A stretch of 64,000 nucleotides of DNA from Candidatus Scalindua sp. (lineage in GTDB: Bacteria; Planctomycetota; Brocadiia; Brocadiales; Scalinduaceae): NCBI GenBank assembly GCA_021776915.1, contig JAIQZU010000006.1, positions 62,001 through 126,000 of the forward strand, in the 5' to 3' direction. Both the position numbers and the translations under genes were made by a program. The first letter of the stretch is position 1. The number at the start of each line of letters is the position of its first letter. The notes under the pieces are model-generated. The model did no database searches. It worked only from the letters and a program-made list of their open reading frames with translations, and was not told where the DNA came from. Shown here in pieces: positions 37,471 to 60,416 of the stretch.

Positions 37471-37704
37471 TTTACTCCTTTACTCTTCGGATTTCGTTTT
37501 GCGCAGCAAAACACACATAAATTAGCAACTAACATGAGCTAATTTAAGTATTACAACTTGATATTTTCGTGTCAATTAAAAAGATTTAATGTTTTTATTG
37601 GTAATTACAATCTTGATCCTTGAAAATTGTGCTGAGTAATGCGAAAATAAGTAGGTTAAACAAACTGTTTGAGAATTCATACTTATATAACAAAAGGAGA
37701 AATT

Positions 37705-38910
37705 ATGATAAGCGTTGATGAAGCGTTGCAGATCGTTCTGAAGAAAGGGAAAAGACTATTGCCAGAAAAGGTGAAGCTGGAGAATGCAGCAGGGCTTTGT
37801 CTGGCGGAGGACATCAAGTCAGATTTAAATATGCCTCCATTTAACAGGTCGGCAATGGATGGCTATGCTGTGATTGCAAAGGACATAAATCCACCGGTGG
37901 ATCTTGAAGTCATAGAAAATATACGCGCCGGATACAACCCGAAGAAAAGGGTTGGCAGGGGACAGGCGGCTAAGATCATGACGGGTTCCGTAGTCCCCAA
38001 AGGCGCTGATGCGGTTATAAAGGTAGAGGAAACAAAACCGTTAGACAATGACAGAAAGGTGCGTTTCCTTAAGAAAACAAAAAAGGGCGCTAATATTGCC
38101 AGGAAGGGAGAGGACGTCCGTGTTGGTAATGTGGTGCTTCGCAAGGGAACGAAGATAAGGGCTCAGGAGGCCGGCATCCTTGCCTCAGTTGGCGCAAATT
38201 ACGTTAAGACGTATGCAACTCCAGGTATAGGCATTATCTCTACCGGTGATGAGTTGGTAGAGATTACGCGCAAACCCAAACCATGGCAGATACGTAACAG
38301 TAACAGCTATTCTCTGGCGGCACAGGCTCGACAGATTGTTACAGACGTTGAGATTCTTGGCAGGGTTAATGATAATGAGAAAGAGATAATGAAATTGATT
38401 AAGAAGGGCTTGAGGAAGGATATATTGATATTGTCCGGAGGGGTATCAATGGGGGAGTTTGATCTTGTCGGTGGTGTATTGCAGGATCTCGGTGTTAAGA
38501 TATTTTTTGAGAAAGTAGCGCTCAGGCCTGGCAAACCCACGGTGTTTGGCAAAAAGGACGATAAATTGGTTTTTGCGCTTCCCGGTAATCCCGTGTCAAC
38601 CTTTGTTACCTTTGAACTGTTTGTAAAGCCGTGTATTAAAAAGATGATGGGGTTCACCTCTTATGAACATCCAATAATGCATGCAGAACTGGAAAGGGAT
38701 ATTAAGATCAAGAAAAAGCGCCGCGAATATCGGCCTGCATTATTAAGTCAGGCAGGTTCCGGATGGAAGGTTTCTCTCGTAAACTGGCATGGTTCGGGAG
38801 ATCTGTTTTCAACCACAAAGGCTAATTGTCTGCTTATTGTCAGAGAGTCGGTTGAGAAGCTGAACGCCGGTGATATGGTAGAAGTAATGTTGATAGATGG
38901 TTTGTTTTGA
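37705..38910 (+). CDS. moeA: Molybdopterin molybdenumtransferase
   Basis: 401 residues from ATG 37705, chosen because AAAGGAGAA is 5 bases before; an in-frame upstream extension to 37669 has no support. Inserts molybdate (or tungstate) into molybdopterin. ISVDEALQIVLKK start, NMPPFNRSAMDGYAV, GQAAKIMTGSVVPKGADAVIKVEE, ISTGDELVEITRKPKPWQIRNSNSYSL, LILSGGVSMGEFDLVGGVL (substrate-binding), FGKKDDKLVFALPGNPVSTFVTFELFV. With mobB at 51325 the window has two molybdenum cofactor genes, so molybdo- or tungsto-enzymes exist in the cell. Confidence 0.95.
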   Translation: MISVDEALQIVLKKGKRLLPEKVKLENAAGLCLAEDIKSDLNMPPFNRSAMDGYAVIAKDINPPVDLEVIENIRAGYNPKKRVGRGQAAKIMTGSVVPKGADAVIKVEETKPLDNDRKVRFLKKTKKGANIARKGEDVRVGNVVLRKGTKIRAQEAGILASVGANYVKTYATPGIGIISTGDELVEITRKPKPWQIRNSNSYSLAAQARQIVTDVEILGRVNDNEKEIMKLIKKGLRKDILILSGGVSMGEFDLVGGVLQDLGVKIFFEKVALRPGKPTVFGKKDDKLVFALPGNPVSTFVTFELFVKPCIKKMMGFTSYEHPIMHAELERDIKIKKKRREYRPALLSQAGSGWKVSLVNWHGSGDLFSTTKANCLLIVRESVEKLNAGDMVEVMLIDGLF

Positions 38911-51324: not shown

Positions 51325-51828
51325 CTATTTACTCTTTTTAAGATGAATAATGTTTTCTATAAAATCCAGGGCCTTATTTGTGTCTTCTGTTGAGAAGCAT
51401 TTCGTTTTCAGATTTTCATTTATAAGTATTAACTCGTTTTCTCCAGCCTTTTCATCTGTTTTTGTTTCATTTGAATCTATTATCTTGATTCTGGGAAAGT
51501 CATTTCCTCTGTACCCTTCTACAAGCACAATATTCACATCATTAAGATATTTTGTAATAATTTCACTTGCTCCGGGTGGGTCCGCCACTCTCTTGATGAC
51601 GGCGATCTTGTTTTGTGATGTAAGGGCGATTGAATCTGCTCCTGATTGGTAGTACTTGTACGTATCCTTGCCTTCGTGATCGACCTTAAACTCTTTGATG
51701 TTGTATTTGAGGGTTCCTACTCTGTGTCCACGTTCTTTTAATTTTGGAATGAGTGTTCTGATGAGTGTTGTCTTTCCTGCATTCTGCCTTCCTGCGATGG
51801 CTATTATTGTTACTTCTTCAGAATTCAT
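51325..51828 (-). CDS. mobB: Molybdopterin-guanine dinucleotide biosynthesis adaptor protein MobB
   Basis: 167 residues. P-loop AIAGRQNAGKTTLIRTLIPK (about 11-30), GHRVGTLKYNIKEFKVDHEGKDTYKYYQSGADSIAL, and VLVEGYRGNDFPRIKII, all MobB features. A GTP-binding helper in attachment of GMP to molybdopterin. Last gene of the hdr-flx operon, overlapping flxA by 11 bases, which suggests that the electron-bifurcating complex serves a molybdo- or tungsto-enzyme. Confidence 0.9.
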   Translation of the reverse strand: MNSEEVTIIAIAGRQNAGKTTLIRTLIPKLKERGHRVGTLKYNIKEFKVDHEGKDTYKYYQSGADSIALTSQNKIAVIKRVADPPGASEIITKYLNDVNIVLVEGYRGNDFPRIKIIDSNETKTDEKAGENELILINENLKTKCFSTEDTNKALDFIENIIHLKKSK

Positions 51829-52651
51829 CTGGCATCTTGCCTATTTCTTCAGCCGTAAAGACAGGGCCTTCTTTACAAACATAAGTACATCCAATATTAC
51901 ATCTACCGCATTTTCCCAGTCCGCATTTCATTCTGTTCTCAAGGGTAGTGTATACTTTCTCCTGCTTGAAGCCGAGTTTTTCAAGTACAGGCAGAGTGAA
52001 CTTAATCATTATGGGAGGCCCGCATACTATAGCGATTGTGTCCTTGCTATCGGGCGCTGTTTCTTCTACAACAGTTGGTACAAAGCCCACCTTGCCTGTC
52101 CAATCCGGCGTTTCTCCACCCGGGTCAACGGTAGTTACCAGGTTAACGTCATCTCTTGCATTCCATTCCTTAAGTTCGTTCTTATACACCAGGTCTGCAA
52201 CGGTCTTTGCCCCGTAAACGATGGTTACATTTTTGTACTTGTCTCGCAGGTCTAAACAGTTCCAGATAACACACCTTAATGGAGGCAATGCGATACCGCC
52301 TGCAATGAACACGAGGTTCTTTCCTTCCCACTCTTCTATGGGAAATACATTTCCATATGGCCCCCTGAATCCGATAGTATCGCCTACGTTGAGTTCTCTC
52401 AGTGCATTGGTTACCCTGCCAGCCTGTCTGAAAGTACATTCGATGTAGTCTTTCCTTGTGGGTGATGAAGCGATACAAAAGGTAGACTCGCCATAACCAA
52501 ACACAGAATATAGCGCAAACTGTCCTGCCTGGAATTGGAAATTTTTACCTTCTTCTTCGTTTAAGAAATTAAGCCTGAATGTTCTCACACCAGGAGCTTC
52601 ATCTATCGTATCACTGATATTCATAAGATACGGTTTATATATGTTTTCCAT
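51818..52651 (-). CDS. FAD/NAD(P)-binding oxidoreductase, FlxA / hydrogenase gamma-like
   Basis: 277 residues. Ferredoxin-NADP reductase fold: FQAGQFALYSVFGYGESTFCIASSPT (FAD; the usual RxYS is changed), GPYGNVFPIEEWEGKNLVFIAGGIALPPLRCVI and IAIVCGPPIMIKFTLPVLEK (NAD(P)). The C-terminus holds four Cys in MKCGLGKCGRCNIGCTYVC (about 243-261), a 2Fe-2S site. Delivers NADH electrons into the Hdr/Flx complex. As in sulfhydrogenase gamma and FlxA. Confidence 0.88.
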   Translation of the reverse strand: MENIYKPYLMNISDTIDEAPGVRTFRLNFLNEEEGKNFQFQAGQFALYSVFGYGESTFCIASSPTRKDYIECTFRQAGRVTNALRELNVGDTIGFRGPYGNVFPIEEWEGKNLVFIAGGIALPPLRCVIWNCLDLRDKYKNVTIVYGAKTVADLVYKNELKEWNARDDVNLVTTVDPGGETPDWTGKVGFVPTVVEETAPDSKDTIAIVCGPPIMIKFTLPVLEKLGFKQEKVYTTLENRMKCGLGKCGRCNIGCTYVCKEGPVFTAEEIGKMPDEF

Positions 52652-52722
52652 AATATTTACACTTTCTCTCGATAATATGAGAAATTCCTACTCTTCAGGT
52701 GATAATTATAGTTTTATAAATT

Positions 52723-52852
52723 CGAAATCCTAAACTAGAAATACGAAACAAATTCAAATATCTAATGACAGAAATTCAAGACTATGTTTTGGAACATTTG
52801 TATTTGTGATTTAGGCATTGTTTCGAGCTTCGAAATTCGTGCTTCGGATTTT
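52723..52852. repeat. AT-rich long palindrome family, copy 2 (inside flx operon)
   Basis: CGAAATCCTAAACTAGAAAT, ACGAAACAAATTCAAATATC on the left; TTCGAAATTCGTGCTTCGGA on the right. The two sides are imperfect inverted copies. The same family lies at 2395-2670. It occupies the 205-base spacer between flxA and the 4Fe-4S gene, with no other feature. Confidence 0.6.
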
Positions 52853-52856
52853 ATCA

Positions 52857-53876
52857 TCATTCTTTCTGGTTGTCTTCTGTGGCAATTATTTCGAGCATTT
52901 CAGAAATATTCATGTCTGCAGGACAAACTCTCGAACACCTTCCGCAGCCGACACAGAGTATGTTGTCAAATTTTTCTACGTAATATTTAAATTTATGCAT
53001 GATCCTCTGGCGCCATCGCTGGTCTTGTGTAGACCTTGGATTGTGTCCGGACGTATGCAGTGTAAACATCTTGAACTGGCAACCATCCCAGTTCTTAACC
53101 CTGTCACCTTTTGACATCGTACACTCGTCAACAATATCAAAGCAATGGCATGTAGGACACACAAATGTACATGCGCCACAGCCTATACATTTAGTAGAAA
53201 ATTCCGCCCATACTTTGTTTACAAAATTTTCATCGAGCCACGGTTTAACCTTATCAATCTCAAACTTCTTTTCAACTGATGCGATCTGTCGTTCCGGCGT
53301 TCCACCGGCAGGATCGGAAAAAACGGTTTCCAGTTCCTTTATCAGGCCTTCACCCTTTTCGGTTACTGTCTCTACTAAATACTCATCATCAGAAATCTTT
53401 GTAAGCAGCACGTCACTGCCTTCCTTTGAATCCGGAGCCAGATTCACTGATGTGCAAAAGCAATAACTATCACATTTGTCACATGCAATGGTCACTACGG
53501 TAATGGCCTCTCTTCTTTCAACCCAGAACTTGTCGCTGCAATCCCAATTAAAGACCTTGTCCATGACAGGCAGGCTGGCGGCATCACATGGCCTTGATCC
53601 AAAGATAACCGTTTTAACTGCAAAACCTTCAGGCTCTTCCATACTAACCTTATTTTTTTCAATTTTATAAGATAGTATCTTCTCCGTCTTTGGAAGGAAA
53701 AATTCTTTAACAGAATTGTTGGTCTGGACGTGATCAAGGTGGATCTCATCCGCACTCTGTACCTCGTCAAGCATGACAAGGTTATTGTCCTTCTTTGGAG
53801 CAATGGTCTTATAACCCTTATCTTTCAGACCAGTAATTAGAGAATTAAAATTTTCTTTCTTTAAAGTTTTTTCCAC
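52857..53876 (-). CDS. 4Fe-4S dicluster subunit, hydrogenase-beta / FlxB-C-like
   Basis: 339 residues. N-terminal domain with GSRPCDAASLPVMDKVF and IACDKCDSYCFCTSVN, typical for AsrA/hydrogenase beta; C-terminal ferredoxin domain with STKCIGCGACTFVCPTCHCFD and NILCVGCGRCSRVCPADMNI, two 4Fe-4S clusters. Passes electrons between FlxA and the other iron-sulfur subunits. It ends 205 bases before flxA (repeat DNA between) and starts 18 bases after the next subunit. Confidence 0.88.
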   Translation of the reverse strand: MEKTLKKENFNSLITGLKDKGYKTIAPKKDNNLVMLDEVQSADEIHLDHVQTNNSVKEFFLPKTEKILSYKIEKNKVSMEEPEGFAVKTVIFGSRPCDAASLPVMDKVFNWDCSDKFWVERREAITVVTIACDKCDSYCFCTSVNLAPDSKEGSDVLLTKISDDEYLVETVTEKGEGLIKELETVFSDPAGGTPERQIASVEKKFEIDKVKPWLDENFVNKVWAEFSTKCIGCGACTFVCPTCHCFDIVDECTMSKGDRVKNWDGCQFKMFTLHTSGHNPRSTQDQRWRQRIMHKFKYYVEKFDNILCVGCGRCSRVCPADMNISEMLEIIATEDNQKE

Positions 53877-53894
53877 AGCAAAATCCCTGAAATC

Positions 53895-54740
53895 CTATTT
53901 GAAAATATCCTCACTGTCATCTTCTTTGTACGTGGCCATTGCAAGTTCATCGTCTACATTGTAACCGGACCGGTACTTAAAATTCTTCTCCGTCTCCTTG
54001 GCCAGTTTCTTATTAAGGAGATTAAGTGGTATGTCTGCTGGACATACCCTTTGACACTCTTCACAGTTTATGCATCTGCCGGCTAAATGATAAGCCCTTG
54101 TAACGTTCCATGAGAGATTGCCGCGTGGATGTGCGCTTGGGTCGATCCATTGAGGCTGGTTTTTGTCTACGATACATCTATCACAAAAGCAGAGAGGACA
54201 GATACTGCTGCAGGCGTAACACTTGATGCATTTTGCAAACTGTTTCTGCCAGAAATCCCATTTTTCTTTTTCTGATAGTTTCTCATATTCGTCCAGTTCA
54301 GCATATCTTTCATCAAAGGAGAATTCCTTGTTCTCAATCTTCTCACCAATTAACTCATCATATATAAGCGGGGTGTTGACATCACATGCCTTACATTTTG
54401 TTGCCGGAGGTTCTCCTATTCCAGTACATGTGACACCGATGATATAAATGTCTTCACGTTTAATCTGGCTCTCCTTAATGAGTACAGTGATAGTCTTTGC
54501 ATCGCATCCCTTTACTACAATTGCAGGTTTTCCAAGTTTTCTTGCTTCCTGCTTCTTGAGGTACGTTGTAAGGTTATAGACACAATACTTGTTCCATGTT
54601 AATTTGTTTACGTCCTCAGGCTTAGTAATGAATACCGGCCTTGTTCTTTCCGGTACGCTGCCTTCACCATATCCGTAAACAACGTCAACGGTTTTACTCC
54701 TGAGTAATTCCTCAGCCTTTTTTCTTAGAGCCTCAATCAT
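53895..54740 (-). CDS. 4Fe-4S dicluster subunit, F420-hydrogenase-beta-like / FlxC-like
   Basis: 281 residues. The N-terminal half resembles F420-reducing hydrogenase beta and FdhB-like proteins (VDVVYGYGEGSVPERTRPVF, KPAIVVKGCDAKTITVLIKE, DIYIIGVTCTGIGEPPATKC). The C-terminal half has two cluster motifs: AKCIKCYACSSICPLCFCDRC and GRCINCEECQRVCPADIPL. Works with the neighbouring dicluster protein and MvhD-like subunit in electron transfer to HdrA. Whether it corresponds to FlxB or FlxC is not decided here. Confidence 0.85.
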   Translation of the reverse strand: MIEALRKKAEELLRSKTVDVVYGYGEGSVPERTRPVFITKPEDVNKLTWNKYCVYNLTTYLKKQEARKLGKPAIVVKGCDAKTITVLIKESQIKREDIYIIGVTCTGIGEPPATKCKACDVNTPLIYDELIGEKIENKEFSFDERYAELDEYEKLSEKEKWDFWQKQFAKCIKCYACSSICPLCFCDRCIVDKNQPQWIDPSAHPRGNLSWNVTRAYHLAGRCINCEECQRVCPADIPLNLLNKKLAKETEKNFKYRSGYNVDDELAMATYKEDDSEDIFK

Positions 54741-54811
54741 TTAATAATCTCCATATAAAATATAAAAGCAGGTTTGGGAACCTGCCATTACCATACATGA
54801 TTAGTTTATAA

Positions 54812-55273
54812 TCAACTTTTCTCACTGGAAGCGTCCGGACCGATTGCATTAATCTTATGATACCCTTCAAATGGTCCCAACGCTCTGACAGAATCGACTA
54901 CGCCGTTTATCGTTTCAACCCATTTCCCGCCTTCTGCGGCAGATATCCACGAGAATTGAATTCTTTCCGGATTGATTCCACAGAATTCAAGCAGGGGACG
55001 GAAGACATTCCACCTGCGCCTGGCGTGATAATTGCCAGAATTGTAATGGCAGTCTCCTGGATGACATCCTGAAACCAGGATACCATCGGCTCCCCGTTCA
55101 AATGCTTTTATCAGGAATAAAGGATCTATCCCTCCGGTGCATGGGAGTTTGATTACGCGCACATTTGCCTGATATTGCTTTCTCCCTGTACCCGCAAGGT
55201 CTGCGCCTGCATAGGTACACCAGTTACAGAGAAATGCGACTATTCTGGGTTCAAATTTAGTTTCATCTGACAT
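54812..55273 (-). CDS. mvhD: MvhD/FlxD-like iron-sulfur subunit
   Basis: 153 residues. IVAFLCNWCTYAGADLAGTGRKQYQANVRVIKLPCTGGIDPLFLIKAFERGADGILVSGCHPGDCHYNSGNYHARRR is the complete MvhD signature with its 2Fe-2S cysteines (CNWC, CTGG, CHPGDC). The protein docks the electron-input module on HdrA. Located directly between hdrA and the input subunits, as in flxD. Confidence 0.93.
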   Translation of the reverse strand: MSDETKFEPRIVAFLCNWCTYAGADLAGTGRKQYQANVRVIKLPCTGGIDPLFLIKAFERGADGILVSGCHPGDCHYNSGNYHARRRWNVFRPLLEFCGINPERIQFSWISAAEGGKWVETINGVVDSVRALGPFEGYHKINAIGPDASSEKS

Positions 55274-55299
55274 TGTAATTATATAATGAATAAATAAAT

Positions 55300-55327
55300 G
55301 TAAGGGCGTATTATTATACGCCCCTAC
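55300..55327. repeat. GTA(A/G)GGGCGTATT palindrome between mvhD and hdrA
   Basis: Arms GTAAGGGCGTAT and ATACGCCCCTAC around TATT, one mismatch; same family as 21816-21843. Sits in the 91-base spacer of the operon. Confidence 0.65.
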
Positions 55328-55364
55328 TTTGTGGTAACTTTGAAATTCATAAATATCTAGATAT

Positions 55365-57413
55365 TTAATTAAATTCTACGGCGTTAATCTCTGCATATAT
55401 TTGTTCATCATTGAAGCCATCTAACTCTATACTCTTAGATCTGCATGTTGCCGCACACAAACCGCAGCCCTGGCAGAGTCCTTCATTTACTCTTGCAACG
55501 GTCTTTATCACACTGCCGTCACGTGCCTTAATATCTTCTGACTCAATTGCACTGTATGGACATACTTTCTGACAGTAGAAGCATCCAATGCATGTTGAGA
55601 AGACAGGTGGGAGTTGTCTATCTACCCTGGCGACTACAGGTTCACGTTCCAGCTCATCTGATGAAAGCAAGGCAAGTACCTTACTTGCCGCAGCACCCGC
55701 CTGTGCAACAGTCTCCGGTATGTCTTTAGGTCCCTGACATGTTCCGGCAAGAAAGATTCCGGCGCTGCTGCTTTCTACCGGTTTTAGCTTTGGATGTATC
55801 TCTGATAAAAATTTATCTTTATCATACTGTATGCTCAGTTTCTGTGCAATCTCCATCGCATCGTCCTGTGCCTTCATTGCCGATGCAAGTACTACCATGT
55901 CGGCCTCAATCTCGACTACTGAGCCTGTTAATGTGTCTGCTCCGAGTACAACCAGCTTCTCGCCTTTCTTGTAAACCCTTGAGACGCGGCCTCTGAGATA
56001 CGTGGCTCCTTCTTCTTCTATTGCCCTTTGTGAAAATTCTTCGTAGCCTTTTCCGGCACATCTGATATCTATATAGAAGACAAATGCGTGTCCATGATGC
56101 ACCTTGTGCTTGTACAGCATGGTGTGCTTGGCCGTATACATACAACATGTCTTGGAACAGTATGAACACCCTTTTGCAGGGTCTCTGGAACCAACACATT
56201 GAATAAATACTACTATTTCCGGCTCTTTGCCGTCAGAAGGTCTTTTAATTACGCCTTCCGTTGGGCCGGAAGCGCTGGCAAGACGCTCAAATTGCAGTCC
56301 CGTTATTACGTCTTCATATTTACCGCCGCCATATTCACCATAGAGACCATCCTCAAGTTCCTTATAGCCTGTGGCAACGATTATTGCGCCGACTTTTACC
56401 TCTATAATTTCATCTTCCTGGTTGTAGTCAATTGCCTTAACCGGAGCTATCGGACATGCGTCTATACACTTTCTGCAAACCTTGGAATCATTTGGTTTAA
56501 TGTTTTTCTTGCGTGCGTCTTTAAATAATATGCAGTTTTCCCTGTCGATTACAGGCTTGCTGGGAATCGCCTGTGGAAATGGGATATAGATGGCAGTCCT
56601 GTTTCCAAGACCCATATCAAATTCGCTCTTTATTTTTGAGCATGGGCACACCTGCCAGCATGAACTGCATCCGGTACACAAGTCCAGGTCAACAGACCTT
56701 GCCTTCTTACGAATCTTTACAGTGAAATTGCCAATATAACCGTCAACGGATTCTATCTCGGACCATGTGTGCATTGTTATGTTGTCATTTTGCGCAGCTT
56801 CAACCATCTTCGGCGTCATGATACACTGTGAACAGTCGAGGGTAGGGAAAGTTTCGGACAGTTGAGCCATGTGGCCGCCGATTGACGCTTCTCTCTCAAC
56901 CATTATAACTTCATGTCCACCATCAGCTATATCCAATGCCGCTTGAATTCCTGCGATACCGCCTCCGATAACGAGGGCGCGTTTTGTAACGGGAACCTTT
57001 ATTGCATTTAGTGATTTATCCTTTCTGACCTTTTCGGTCATCATCCTTACGAGATCGGTGGATTTTTCTGTCCCTACAGGAATTTCCGGATGAACCCAGG
57101 AACACTGTTCCCTGATGTTTGAGATTTCAACATGATATGGGTTCAGGCCTGTTTTTATAGCGGCGTTACGGAATGTATGTTCGTGCATCTTTGGAGAGCA
57201 GGCGGCGACTACTACACCATCTAATCCTTCTTCCTTGATTTTGTCTCTTAAGAGTTTCTGGCCGGGGTCCGAACACATATACTTGTAGGTAGTTGTATAT
57301 GAAACCCCGGGGTTATTCTTTTTGGTCTCTTCCGCTACTTTCTCAACATCAACTGTAGCAGAGATATTCGTACCACAATGACAGACAAATACACCAATCT
57401 TCTTGTTACCCAC
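55365..57413 (-). CDS. hdrA: CoB-CoM heterodisulfide reductase-like flavoprotein HdrA
   Basis: 682 residues. KIGVFVCHCGTNISATVDVE and VVAACSPKMHEHTF (N-terminal HdrA domain), FAD site ALVIGGGIAGIQAALDIADGGHEVIMVEREASIGGHMAQLSETFPTLDCSQCIMTPKM, a first ferredoxin pair (CTGCSSCWQVCPCSK; CRKCIDACPIAPV), CVGSRDPAKGCSYCSKTCCMYTAKH, and a C-terminal ferredoxin pair (CIGCFYCQKVCPYSAIE; CQGCGLCAATCRSKS). HdrA is the bifurcating flavin subunit: it splits electrons between ferredoxin and HdrB. Confidence 0.95.
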   Translation of the reverse strand: MGNKKIGVFVCHCGTNISATVDVEKVAEETKKNNPGVSYTTTYKYMCSDPGQKLLRDKIKEEGLDGVVVAACSPKMHEHTFRNAAIKTGLNPYHVEISNIREQCSWVHPEIPVGTEKSTDLVRMMTEKVRKDKSLNAIKVPVTKRALVIGGGIAGIQAALDIADGGHEVIMVEREASIGGHMAQLSETFPTLDCSQCIMTPKMVEAAQNDNITMHTWSEIESVDGYIGNFTVKIRKKARSVDLDLCTGCSSCWQVCPCSKIKSEFDMGLGNRTAIYIPFPQAIPSKPVIDRENCILFKDARKKNIKPNDSKVCRKCIDACPIAPVKAIDYNQEDEIIEVKVGAIIVATGYKELEDGLYGEYGGGKYEDVITGLQFERLASASGPTEGVIKRPSDGKEPEIVVFIQCVGSRDPAKGCSYCSKTCCMYTAKHTMLYKHKVHHGHAFVFYIDIRCAGKGYEEFSQRAIEEEGATYLRGRVSRVYKKGEKLVVLGADTLTGSVVEIEADMVVLASAMKAQDDAMEIAQKLSIQYDKDKFLSEIHPKLKPVESSSAGIFLAGTCQGPKDIPETVAQAGAAASKVLALLSSDELEREPVVARVDRQLPPVFSTCIGCFYCQKVCPYSAIESEDIKARDGSVIKTVARVNEGLCQGCGLCAATCRSKSIELDGFNDEQIYAEINAVEFN

Positions 57414-57451
57414 TTACAAACTCCTCAGTGAAAAATTATCTTTTACACATA

Positions 57452-57538
57452 TGTAGCGGCGTATTGCAATCCCCGGACAAACTGCGCTCCCCGGACTGGA
57501 AAGCGCCGAGGACAAGACGAGGACTTTACGCTCCTACA
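57452..57538. repeat. GTAGCGGCGTA palindrome holding a rearranged 27-bp-type insert
   Basis: TGTAGCGGCGTATTGCAA (57452-57469) and TTACGCTCCTACA (57526-57538) are the arms of the GTAGGGGCGTATT palindrome; between them (57470-57526) lies TCCCCGGACAAACTGCGC, then a second TCCCCGGAC...GCGCCGAGGAC and CGAGGACTT. Located in the hdrB-hdrA spacer of 132 bases. Confidence 0.65.
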
Positions 57539-57545
57539 GGATTAA

Positions 57546-58433
57546 TTATGCAAATGCATTAACGACTGATTCAGTATCTATAAAGTGTTTATTCAGACCA
57601 AGACTTATCGGGCCTAAATCTAAAGCAAGACCAATAAGTTCTGAGATGTACACGACAGGAATATCGAATTTGCGATTATATTCCTTTTCTATTTTCTTCT
57701 GCCTCATATCCAGGTTTGCGTGACACATCGGACAAGCTACGGCTATTGCATCTGCGCCTGCGTCTACAGCGCACTCTAAAATATCATTAGTCAGTTTTAA
57801 TACTACGTCTGTCCGGCTGAGTGTAAAGCCTCCGCCGCAGCAATTTGTTTTAAGTTCCCAGTCTACGGGTATGGCTCCTGTTGCCTCCACTATCTCCTCC
57901 ATGGACGTGGGGTTTTCAGGATCATCAAATTTAAGTACCTTTGGAGGCCTTAACAGAAGGCATCCGTAATAGCAGGCAACCTTTAAATCTTTTGGAGTCT
58001 TCTTTTTCTTCTCGGCGATCTCATCCATGCAATAATTCTTGATTAGTTCAAGATAATTTATGATCTTCACATCGCCATTGCAGGGCATTTCTATGGCATC
58101 CTCGACATCCTTTTTCAGTTTTTCATCGTCCGCAACATCTTTTTGAGAAATAATCAACCTTTGAGAACACATAGGGCAGGGTGCAAGTATTTCTTTAAAA
58201 CCAGATTGTTCTGCCAGGCTGATATTTCTGATAGACAAGGCGGTTGAGAGTTTATGGTTTGTTGCGTGAGCCGAAGATGCGCCACAGCAGTTCCAGTCAT
58301 GGATTTCTTCCAGTTCAGGTCCTATTTCTTCGGATACCCTTAATACAGAGGTGCCATATTCCTCTGAACTTGAACCCATCGTGATTGCACAGCCAGGATA
58401 ATAACCGATCTTCGTTCTTTCTTCTATTTGCAT
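57546..58433 (-). CDS. hdrB: Heterodisulfide reductase-like subunit HdrB
   Basis: 295 residues. Two CCG domains, each ligating a noncubane cluster as in methanogen HdrB: YYPGCAITMG ... WNCCGASSAHATN ... CPMCSQRLI, and ACYYGCLLLRPP ... NCCGGGFTLSRTD ... CPMCHANLDMRQ. The catalytic disulfide-reducing subunit; in bacteria with Flx the acceptor may be DsrC-like or another thiol protein, not identified here. Overlaps hdrC by 10 bases. Confidence 0.95.
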   Translation of the reverse strand: MQIEERTKIGYYPGCAITMGSSSEEYGTSVLRVSEEIGPELEEIHDWNCCGASSAHATNHKLSTALSIRNISLAEQSGFKEILAPCPMCSQRLIISQKDVADDEKLKKDVEDAIEMPCNGDVKIINYLELIKNYCMDEIAEKKKKTPKDLKVACYYGCLLLRPPKVLKFDDPENPTSMEEIVEATGAIPVDWELKTNCCGGGFTLSRTDVVLKLTNDILECAVDAGADAIAVACPMCHANLDMRQKKIEKEYNRKFDIPVVYISELIGLALDLGPISLGLNKHFIDTESVVNAFA

Positions 58434-58978
58434 TTTTCAAATATTCGTTTAACTGCATCCTTGCCTTTAATGTCATGGGGCAAGAATGACAACTTTCCTT
58501 TGCTTAACATTTGAGGACCGACTATTAAATCCTGCAATGCGGTTTTAGGCCTCTTCATCTTGTATTCATTCAGCATCCATAATTCAGAGATACGGCCGTG
58601 CTTCTTAACGGAGTTAAGAAATGCTTCGTGAAATGTTGTGATATTTTTTTCCAGCGGGTTGGCCAGGCCTTCTTCAAGTGACATTTCTCTTAAGACGTCC
58701 ATTAATTCCGCTATCTTAACCTCTTTTGGACATCTTGTTGTACATGTTATACAGGAAGCGCATAACCATATGGTTCTTGATGTTAATGCTTCCCGTCTGG
58801 CGCCAATTTGCACAAATCTGATAATCTGATTCGGCATGTAATCCATCTCATATGCGACAGGGCATCCTGCCGTACATTTGCCGCATTGGTAGCATTTCTT
58901 TACATCTATCCCACTTCTCTCTTCAACTTCTTTAGCAAAATCAGACTTTAATTCTTTTGTTGTAATTTTTATCTTCAT
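58424..58978 (-). CDS. hdrC: Heterodisulfide reductase-like subunit HdrC
   Basis: 184 residues. Two 4Fe-4S motifs: KCYQCGKCTAGCPVAYEMDYMPNQIIRFVQIG (about 34-65) and WLCASCITCTTRCPKEVKIAELMDVLREMSLEEG (about 72-104). Conducts electrons from HdrA to HdrB. First gene of the eight-gene operon hdrC-hdrB-hdrA-mvhD-two dicluster subunits-flxA-mobB. Confidence 0.94.
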   Translation of the reverse strand: MKIKITTKELKSDFAKEVEERSGIDVKKCYQCGKCTAGCPVAYEMDYMPNQIIRFVQIGARREALTSRTIWLCASCITCTTRCPKEVKIAELMDVLREMSLEEGLANPLEKNITTFHEAFLNSVKKHGRISELWMLNEYKMKRPKTALQDLIVGPQMLSKGKLSFLPHDIKGKDAVKRIFEKCK

Positions 58979-59534: not shown

Positions 59535-60416
59535 ATGATTCCAAAGGAAATATTAAAGAAGGTAAAGCAGATACAGATACGCTCAAGCCGTCTGGTTAAT
59601 GATGTATTGGCCGGTGAGTACGTAAGCGTCTTCAAGGGTCGGGGTATGGAATTTGAAGAGGTGCGGGAATATCAGGCCGGAGATGATATACGCACGATTG
59701 ACTGGAATGTTACCGCGCGCCTGGGGCATCCTTACATAAAAAGATTTAAAGAGGAGAGAGAATTAACCATTATGTTTCTGGTTGACCTCAGTTATTCAGG
59801 TGAATTTGGGAGTGTGAAGCAGTTAAAGAACGAGATTGCGACTGAGATATGCGCCCTGCTTGCCCTTTCTGCCGTAAGAAACAATGACAAGGTTGGCCTT
59901 ATTCTTTTTACTGATAAGATTGAAAAATTTGTGCCGCCAAAGAAAGGAAAGACGCATGTACTTCGAGTGATTAGAGAGGTGCTTTACTACAAACCGGAAA
60001 ATAAGGGGACCGACATATCAATAGCCCTTGAGTATCTTTTAAAGGTTACCAAGCGGAAGACAGTCTGTTTCCTGATATCAGACTTTATAACTGAAGGTTT
60101 TGAACATGCATTGCGCACTGCAAACAAGCGTCATGATATAATTGCAGCTTCTATAACAGATCCCCGTGAATTAGAGATACCAAATGTTGGATTTGTTGAG
60201 TTGGAAGATGCGGAAACAGGCGAGATTACACTTATTGATACATCAGACAGGGAGATGATGGAAAGATTTAACAGATTTAATACAAATAGCATGCAGGATA
60301 GGGAGAAATTATTTAGAGGCATGGGTGTCGATTTGATTGATGTAAGGACGGATAAATCGTATGTAGAACCGATTATGAAATTCTTCAGGACAAGAGAAAA
60401 GAGACTTAAATACTAA
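59535..60416 (+). CDS. DUF58 domain protein
   Basis: 293 residues. Hallmark GRGMEFEEVREYQAGDDIRTIDWNVTARLGHPYIKRFKEERELTIMFLVDLSYSGEFGS: DUF58 with a von Willebrand A-like segment (MIDAS DLSYS). These proteins accompany MoxR ATPase and Bat proteins and function in enzyme maturation or stress response. No moxR gene is in the 556 bases upstream, so that partner lies elsewhere. The gap to the next gene (60417-60713) shows nothing clear. Confidence 0.92.
   Translation: MIPKEILKKVKQIQIRSSRLVNDVLAGEYVSVFKGRGMEFEEVREYQAGDDIRTIDWNVTARLGHPYIKRFKEERELTIMFLVDLSYSGEFGSVKQLKNEIATEICALLALSAVRNNDKVGLILFTDKIEKFVPPKKGKTHVLRVIREVLYYKPENKGTDISIALEYLLKVTKRKTVCFLISDFITEGFEHALRTANKRHDIIAASITDPRELEIPNVGFVELEDAETGEITLIDTSDREMMERFNRFNTNSMQDREKLFRGMGVDLIDVRTDKSYVEPIMKFFRTREKRLKY

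Follow-up and report, generated by a model that had tools for sequence, protein, structure and literature searches.

Why does mobB, a gene for molybdenum cofactor synthesis, overlap the end of an operon for an electron-bifurcating complex, and what does the disulfide reductase of that complex reduce? Both questions are raised by a locus of Candidatus Scalindua sp., an anammox bacterium of the family Scalinduaceae (GenBank assembly GCA_021776915.1). By the window we mean the whole stretch of 64,000 nucleotides that was analyzed (contig JAIQZU010000006.1, positions 62,001 to 126,000), and by the window genome the assembly it comes from (3.79 Mb, 89 contigs, 95% complete). Coordinates without a locus label count from the first nucleotide of the window. 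The locus consists of eight intact open reading frames on the minus strand, in this order:

58978-58424, minus strand: hdrC, 184 aa; CxxCxxCxxxC at residues 29 and 73, that is, two [4Fe-4S] motifs
58433-57546, minus strand: hdrB, 295 aa; disulfide reductase subunit with two CCG (non-cubane cluster) domains
57413-55365, minus strand: hdrA, 682 aa, GTG start; subunit with the bifurcating flavin adenine dinucleotide (FAD) and ferredoxin domains
55273-54812, minus strand: mvhD/flxD, 153 aa; linker subunit, FlpD/MvhD match of 175 bits
54740-53895, minus strand: flxC, 281 aa; FdhB-like dicluster subunit
53876-52857, minus strand: flxB, 339 aa, GTG start; dicluster subunit like sulfhydrogenase beta and AsrA
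52651-51818, minus strand: flxA, 277 aa; FAD/NAD(P) and iron-sulfur subunit
51828-51325, minus strand: mobB, 167 aa; P-loop adaptor of molybdopterin guanine dinucleotide (MGD) biosynthesis; its start codon lies within the last flxA codons

The reading that we favor, with a probability of about 0.85, is that this locus encodes a FlxABCD-HdrABC complex, and that mobB is a general adaptor for MGD synthesis and an inherited neighbor of the complex.

Subunits and predicted electron path

Judged from their sequences, the seven hdr and flx genes encode a FlxABCD-HdrABC NADH/ferredoxin/disulfide complex of a known kind. HdrA scores 765 bits with the HdrA2 model, and its residues 3-677 align to PDB 5odc_A (E 1.8e-192); the FAD and ferredoxin domains are present, with ferredoxin motifs at residues 246, 608, and 647. 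HdrB has PF02754 in two stretches and matches 8rvv_B (E 2.8e-43). Both of its CCG motifs are complete: a pattern search caught the first only, and the second, which falls slightly beyond what the pattern allowed, was read by eye as CX39CCX34CxxC. The MvhD/FlxD family carries a [2Fe-2S] cluster. FlxC matches FdhB from the Hdr complexes of methanogens (9t1s_M, E 6.7e-30; 7bkb_E, E 3.2e-29), and FlxA carries the FAD, NAD(P), and iron-sulfur binding domains PF00970, PF00175, and PF10418. FlxB and FlxA match the beta and gamma subunits of sulfhydrogenase 1 (9nez_B, E 5.3e-41; 9nez_C, E 1.1e-58). The nearest models for these two are those of sulfhydrogenase beta/gamma and AsrA/AsrB, but the scores stay under the cut-offs of the models, and so FlxB and FlxA are relatives of those families and not members. 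The original prediction for this DNA, made from the sequence alone, had called the gene set complete and NADH-linked, and it is right on this point, since all seven subunit types are encoded together. It was also right that mobB overlaps flxA (by 11 nt) and belongs to a family of molybdenum cofactor synthesis: MobB passes both the Pfam model (115 bits, cut-off 26.6) and TIGR00176 (108 bits, cut-off 76.2), has an intact P-loop, and aligns with 2f1r_A (E 1.1e-20) and 1np6.

FlxABCD-HdrABC is named in Geobacter sulfurreducens by PMC4703632. The complexes of Desulfovibrio vulgaris (DVU2399-2404) and Geobacter have the same seven functions, and the seven-gene loci of Geobacteraceae have the same order. 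In D. vulgaris, FlxC and FlxD are one protein and the proposed partner is DsrC, according to PMC10920352, whereas the window genome encodes the two separately, gave no DsrC match, and has mobB after flxA. Comparing with methanogen HdrABC (PDB 5odc, 7bkb, 8rvu), HdrA and HdrB align nearly full length, although in one cluster motif of the Scalindua HdrA the first two cysteines are about 16 residues farther apart than in 5odc. The electron input differs: it is of the NAD(P) type, through FlxA and FlxB, in Scalindua, and a hydrogenase or an F420-dependent formate dehydrogenase in methanogens. Unlike sulfhydrogenase 1 (PDB 9nez), the Scalindua operon is without hydrogenase subunits. Elsewhere in the window genome, on contig C33, a NiFe hydrogenase cluster carries paralogues of flxA (43%) and flxB (30%) (L063:5699-10255, minus strand).

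The electron path can be drawn by analogy with homologous HdrABC and sulfhydrogenase structures and with what is known of the families. NADH would transfer hydride to the FAD of FlxA, and the electrons would then travel along the FlxB and FlxC clusters and via FlxD/MvhD to the bifurcating FAD of HdrA. The first electron would leave through the ferredoxin domains of HdrA to ferredoxin, and the second by way of HdrC to HdrB, whose two non-cubane clusters would reduce a disulfide. The complex is probably reversible (confurcation).

Distribution among anammox bacteria and beyond

How widespread is the complex among anammox bacteria? We surveyed 62 genomes of the anammox order: 17 of Scalinduaceae (f1, the family of the window), 2 of f2, which includes Anammoxibacter, 9 of f3, 33 of f4, which we infer to be the Brocadiaceae, and 1 of f5. 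Both HdrA (query cut-off E <=1e-50) and HdrB (E <=1e-12) are matched in 17 of the 62, namely in 16 of the 17 Scalinduaceae and in one of the two f2 genomes (Anammoxibacter). At the same cut-offs there is no HdrA/HdrB match in f3 (0/9), f4 (0/33), or f5 (0/1). Hdr-Flx sets Scalinduaceae and one Anammoxibacter apart from the other anammox families, a concrete and testable difference in how these anammox bacteria may make ferredoxin or NADH.

For gene order, we used 80 named loci, the best of 164 flxA relatives, which comprise 14 Scalindua-type loci and 66 others (the outside loci). Among the relatives are Candidatus Scalindua sediminis, S. arabica, S. rubra, and Candidatus Anammoxibacter. L160 and L165, which bear the name Brocadiaceae, fall with Scalindua in the HdrA tree and are counted as Scalindua-type. 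The order hdrC-B-A-flxD-C-B-A is identical in all 52 of the 80 loci that have the seven genes matched (12 Scalindua-type, 40 others), and the same order is present in Geobacteraceae, Bacteroidota, and Acidobacteriota. In the remaining 28 at least one gene is unmatched, mostly because the locus ends early. The HdrA tree has 38 rows and a midpoint root (thinning removed 17 of the 55 full-length sequences, each from L183 or a later locus). In it, 13 Scalindua-type rows and Anammoxibacter, whose row is long, split from the 24 others on a branch with values 100/99.

One metagenome-assembled genome, G012, has two Hdr-Flx-mobB operons (L067 and L068, on contigs C1 and C23). In one of them an hdrC-hdrB pair close to that of the window is joined to a more distant hdrA-flx-mobB, and on the other contig we observe the reverse. 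This exchange would be either a recombination or an assembly chimera.

FlxABCD-HdrABC is already known as a kind, and so is the presence of a "heterodisulfide reductase-like gene cluster" in Ca. Scalindua profunda, which one sentence of PMC3655542 mentions; that main-text mention gives no subunit anatomy, Flx assignment, or mobB. It is the only mention of this Scalindua cluster that we found, and the cluster may be mentioned elsewhere. PMC5861303 and PMC12054007 have Flx only in their reference lists, and a literature search for mobB together with HdrA gave a single match, a Sporomusa genome announcement. This analysis adds the assignment of the subunits, the finding that among the 62 genomes the complex is restricted to Scalinduaceae and one Anammoxibacter, the missing DsrC match, and an explanation for mobB.

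The mobB gene and its neighborhood

Is mobB a lasting part of the operon? Within the Scalinduaceae, a close flxA (87-100% identity) is found in 15 of the 17 genomes, at 16 loci (G012 has two), and mobB comes directly after it at 14 of the 16; among the named 80 loci, 12 of the 14 Scalindua-type ones have mobB. The 14 include G014, where flxA (residues 1-231) and mobB lie in a single 400-aa open frame without a junction, possibly an assembly or deletion effect. There are two exceptions. In G016 (S. rubra) other sequence follows flxA, and a different MobB-iron-sulfur protein is encoded on another contig. In G010 (L014:2200-2710) mobB has lost its open frame, ACG stands in place of the overlapping start codon, and no other MobB match was found in this genome, which is 82% complete. 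Leaving out L025 of G014, the overlapping ATG and an open mobB frame are present at 13 of 15 loci (one runs off its contig). Since this ATG is part of the Asp-Glu codons at the conserved C-terminus of flxA, flxA itself fixes it in part; in Anammoxibacter that C-terminus is different and the overlapping ATG is missing. When compared with six relatives, the ratio of nonsynonymous to synonymous substitution rates (dN/dS) is 0.20-0.44 for mobB and 0.03-0.09 for flxA. Purifying selection on mobB is weaker but clear.

Outside the family the picture reverses. A check suggested with the original prediction was whether relatives keep mobB in the operon. It is kept inside Scalinduaceae, as just described, but after flxA it is found at none of the 66 outside loci, among the best 80 of the 164 relatives and using a MobB profile built from anammox sequences only. 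This includes the nearest relative, Anammoxibacter, which has no mobB behind flxA. Most outside loci (62/66) extend at least 700 bp beyond flxA. At 14 of the 66 we also looked at the next reading frames behind flxA; none is a MobB by eye, and they differ between phyla.

Where, then, does this mobB come from? MobB is present (E <=1e-8) in 51 of the 62 genomes of the order. In a MobB tree of 57 rows, the flx-linked mobB joins a second type found in f4 (type 2) and the f3 sequences (100/99), and is separated from the order's type-1 mobB. The Scalindua MobB thus belongs to a second lineage, and it passes the curated MobB models. Counted by score, f4 has 27 type-2 mobB loci, and we examined nine of them. 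In all nine, moxR diverges from mobB, and behind mobB there is a small gene (cytochrome-like by eye, without a Pfam match) and then rtcA. After moxR come DUF58 and further bat genes in seven of the nine; in the remaining two the contig runs out in moxR. No hdr or flx match lies at any of the nine loci. Many f4 genomes (e.g., L087-L101, L104-L108) carry a type-1 mobB in addition to the type-2 mobB beside moxR and rtcA. Two f3 mobB loci that we examined have different surroundings, one of them with a weak hdrC-like match (31%).

Around the Scalindua operon, the window has these features:

59278-59249, minus strand: promoter-like TTGACA-18-TATAAT, 12/12 match to the sigma-70 consensus, about 270 nt before hdrC
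59535..60416, plus strand: DUF58 gene, the first of a divergent bat (aerotolerance-type) operon
37669..38910, plus strand: moeA, a molybdenum cofactor gene outside the operon (MoeA_N, 160 bits)

The DUF58-bat operon adjoins hdrC in the window, DUF58 is next to hdrC in seven of the nine named Scalindua-type loci that have at least 2 kb upstream, and an rtcA is also in the window, 25 kb from mobB. Since in most of the family hdr-flx lies between genes that are neighbors in f4, the simplest reading is an insertion of hdr-flx between mobB and bat in the ancestor of Scalinduaceae. In this history mobB would have stayed at its old locus beside the bat operon while hdr-flx came between the two, and after that move the mobB start would have come to fall within the end of flxA. 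A loss of hdr-flx in f4 is a possible alternative history.

Several observations weigh against mobB being an inherited neighbor and no more. The anammox-only profile could miss a divergent MobB in the outside loci. Support for the flx-linked group within the MobB tree is low (79/56), and the f3 rows, as well as the S. rubra row, are long branches. L157 and L161, the two loci of genus g2 with upstream sequence, carry mobB, yet there hdrC has no bat operon next to it; nor did we find moxR at the Scalindua-type loci examined upstream. Finally, the overlap and the selection on mobB speak for a lasting linkage, which could mean that there is a functional reason for it.

One such reason would be that mobB marks a formate dehydrogenase or an aldehyde oxidoreductase type enzyme exchanging electrons with the complex, with the cofactor supply and the complex co-regulated on purpose; the original prediction had mobB point to such a molybdo- or tungsto-enzyme. 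The overlap is retained in the family, FlxC resembles the FdhB of methanogen Hdr-formate dehydrogenase complexes, and three proteins of the window genome pass the formate dehydrogenase alpha cut-off. Yet there is no molybdenum enzyme in the operon, as the prediction itself had noted. The window genome has nine proteins with a molybdopterin domain, all on other contigs (xanthine dehydrogenase and sulfite oxidase types were not searched for): the three of formate dehydrogenase alpha type, which answer the suggestion to look for this enzyme genome-wide, one NapA, one NxrA-like (by our reading of a match to dimethyl sulfoxide reductase type II), one NuoG-like in the nuo cluster, two short formate-dehydrogenase-like proteins, and one cysteine desulfurase fusion. 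A single MobB match was found in this genome for all of them. The same mobB lineage occurs in anammox families without HdrA/HdrB, including f4, where it sits at the moxR-rtcA locus, and Hdr-Flx goes without mobB at all 66 outside loci. As for tungsten, PF01314, the domain of aldehyde:ferredoxin oxidoreductase, was found in none of the 62 genomes of the order (0/62), and the same search did detect it in 5 of 14 control genomes. We therefore do not uphold the claim, and regard a molybdenum or tungsten partner marked by mobB as quite unlikely. A formate dehydrogenase may possibly be linked to the complex through NADH or ferredoxin, but mobB is no indicator of one. Because only one MobB was found, many molybdenum proteins are encoded elsewhere, and the f4 relatives sit at moxR-rtcA, mobB looks like an old neighbor that serves all MGD enzymes. 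The case illustrates that a gene overlap may be taken for a functional clue when the relatives of the gene point to an inherited neighborhood.

The eight genes likely form a single transcript, going by their arrangement. hdrC and hdrB overlap by 10 nt; the spacing is imperfectly tight, with a gap of 205 nt before flxA, and a terminator-like hairpin of 12 pairs lies between hdrA and mvhD (55327-55300). The scan that gave the promoter-like element found 20 sites overall, compared with 21.1 in shuffled sequences, so there is no excess. The flxA-mobB arrangement probably brings about co-expression, not a shared reaction.

The acceptor of HdrB

Which disulfide does HdrB reduce? The original prediction left the substrate open, and our results support that. 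PMC10920352, citing Ramos 2015 and Ferreira 2023, proposes DsrC as the partner in D. vulgaris, and one of the cited titles reports a direct interaction. A DsrC-type protein could likewise be reduced by HdrB here. A DsrC-like N-terminal domain does exist in the order, in 7 of the 62 genomes (5 of 17 Scalinduaceae and both f2), and in all seven it is fused to a NifS-type cysteine desulfurase (L120:268-1707, minus strand; further loci L121-L126). However, DsrC has no match in the window genome, and the match is missing in 12 of the 16 Hdr-bearing Scalinduaceae genomes, the window's included, seven of the twelve being at least 90% complete. In G017, moreover, the fusion is present although neither HdrA nor HdrB has a match. 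A DsrC partner, proposed for one species, does not define the FlxABCD-HdrABC sequence family, and we consider it very unlikely in this case. Without a DsrC match, this HdrB is a well-defined orphan as to what it reduces.

In acetogens, an HdrABC-MvhD-MetVF complex feeds the methylene-tetrahydrofolate reductase MetF. Could the Scalindua complex similarly feed MetF, with a MetV-type partner, in the Wood-Ljungdahl pathway? The window genome has one MetF match and also a PF12225 protein (library label DUF5981), which we take to be MetV. But PF12225 is present in 56 of the 62 genomes, in families with and without HdrA/HdrB, and in the window genome the metF and PF12225 genes are on other contigs (C63, C83). 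At L244:7174-10259 (plus strand), metF adjoins another redox protein; this one is GltD-like, resembles the last part of the HdrA2 model at its C-terminus, and is perhaps MetF's own electron input module. MetF as the acceptor thus seems unlikely.

The gene neighborhoods in other phyla were also searched for a hint to the substrate. At 24 of the 66 outside loci a gene that looks thioredoxin-like by eye lies on the opposite strand, which makes it the commonest neighbor that is not part of the operon; no such neighbor was seen in the window.

A bolder proposal is that the Scalinduaceae complex works on a new disulfide acceptor without DsrC, and that its mobB tail couples molybdenum cofactor supply to the NADH/ferredoxin state; we hold this to be highly improbable. 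The cysteine desulfurase fusion among the nine molybdopterin-domain proteins is a 1152-aa molybdopterin oxidoreductase joined to a NifS-type cysteine desulfurase (L059:5472-8930, minus strand, contig C7), and its neighbor is egtD (L059:9020-10039, minus strand). Caldithrix has a metallopterin-dependent ergothioneine synthase with this architecture, described in PMC9516567, the main text of which does not mention anammox, Scalindua, or Planctomyc. Since an apparent synthase of this kind is encoded beside egtD, one could name, speculatively, a small-thiol disulfide such as oxidized ergothioneine as a candidate acceptor.

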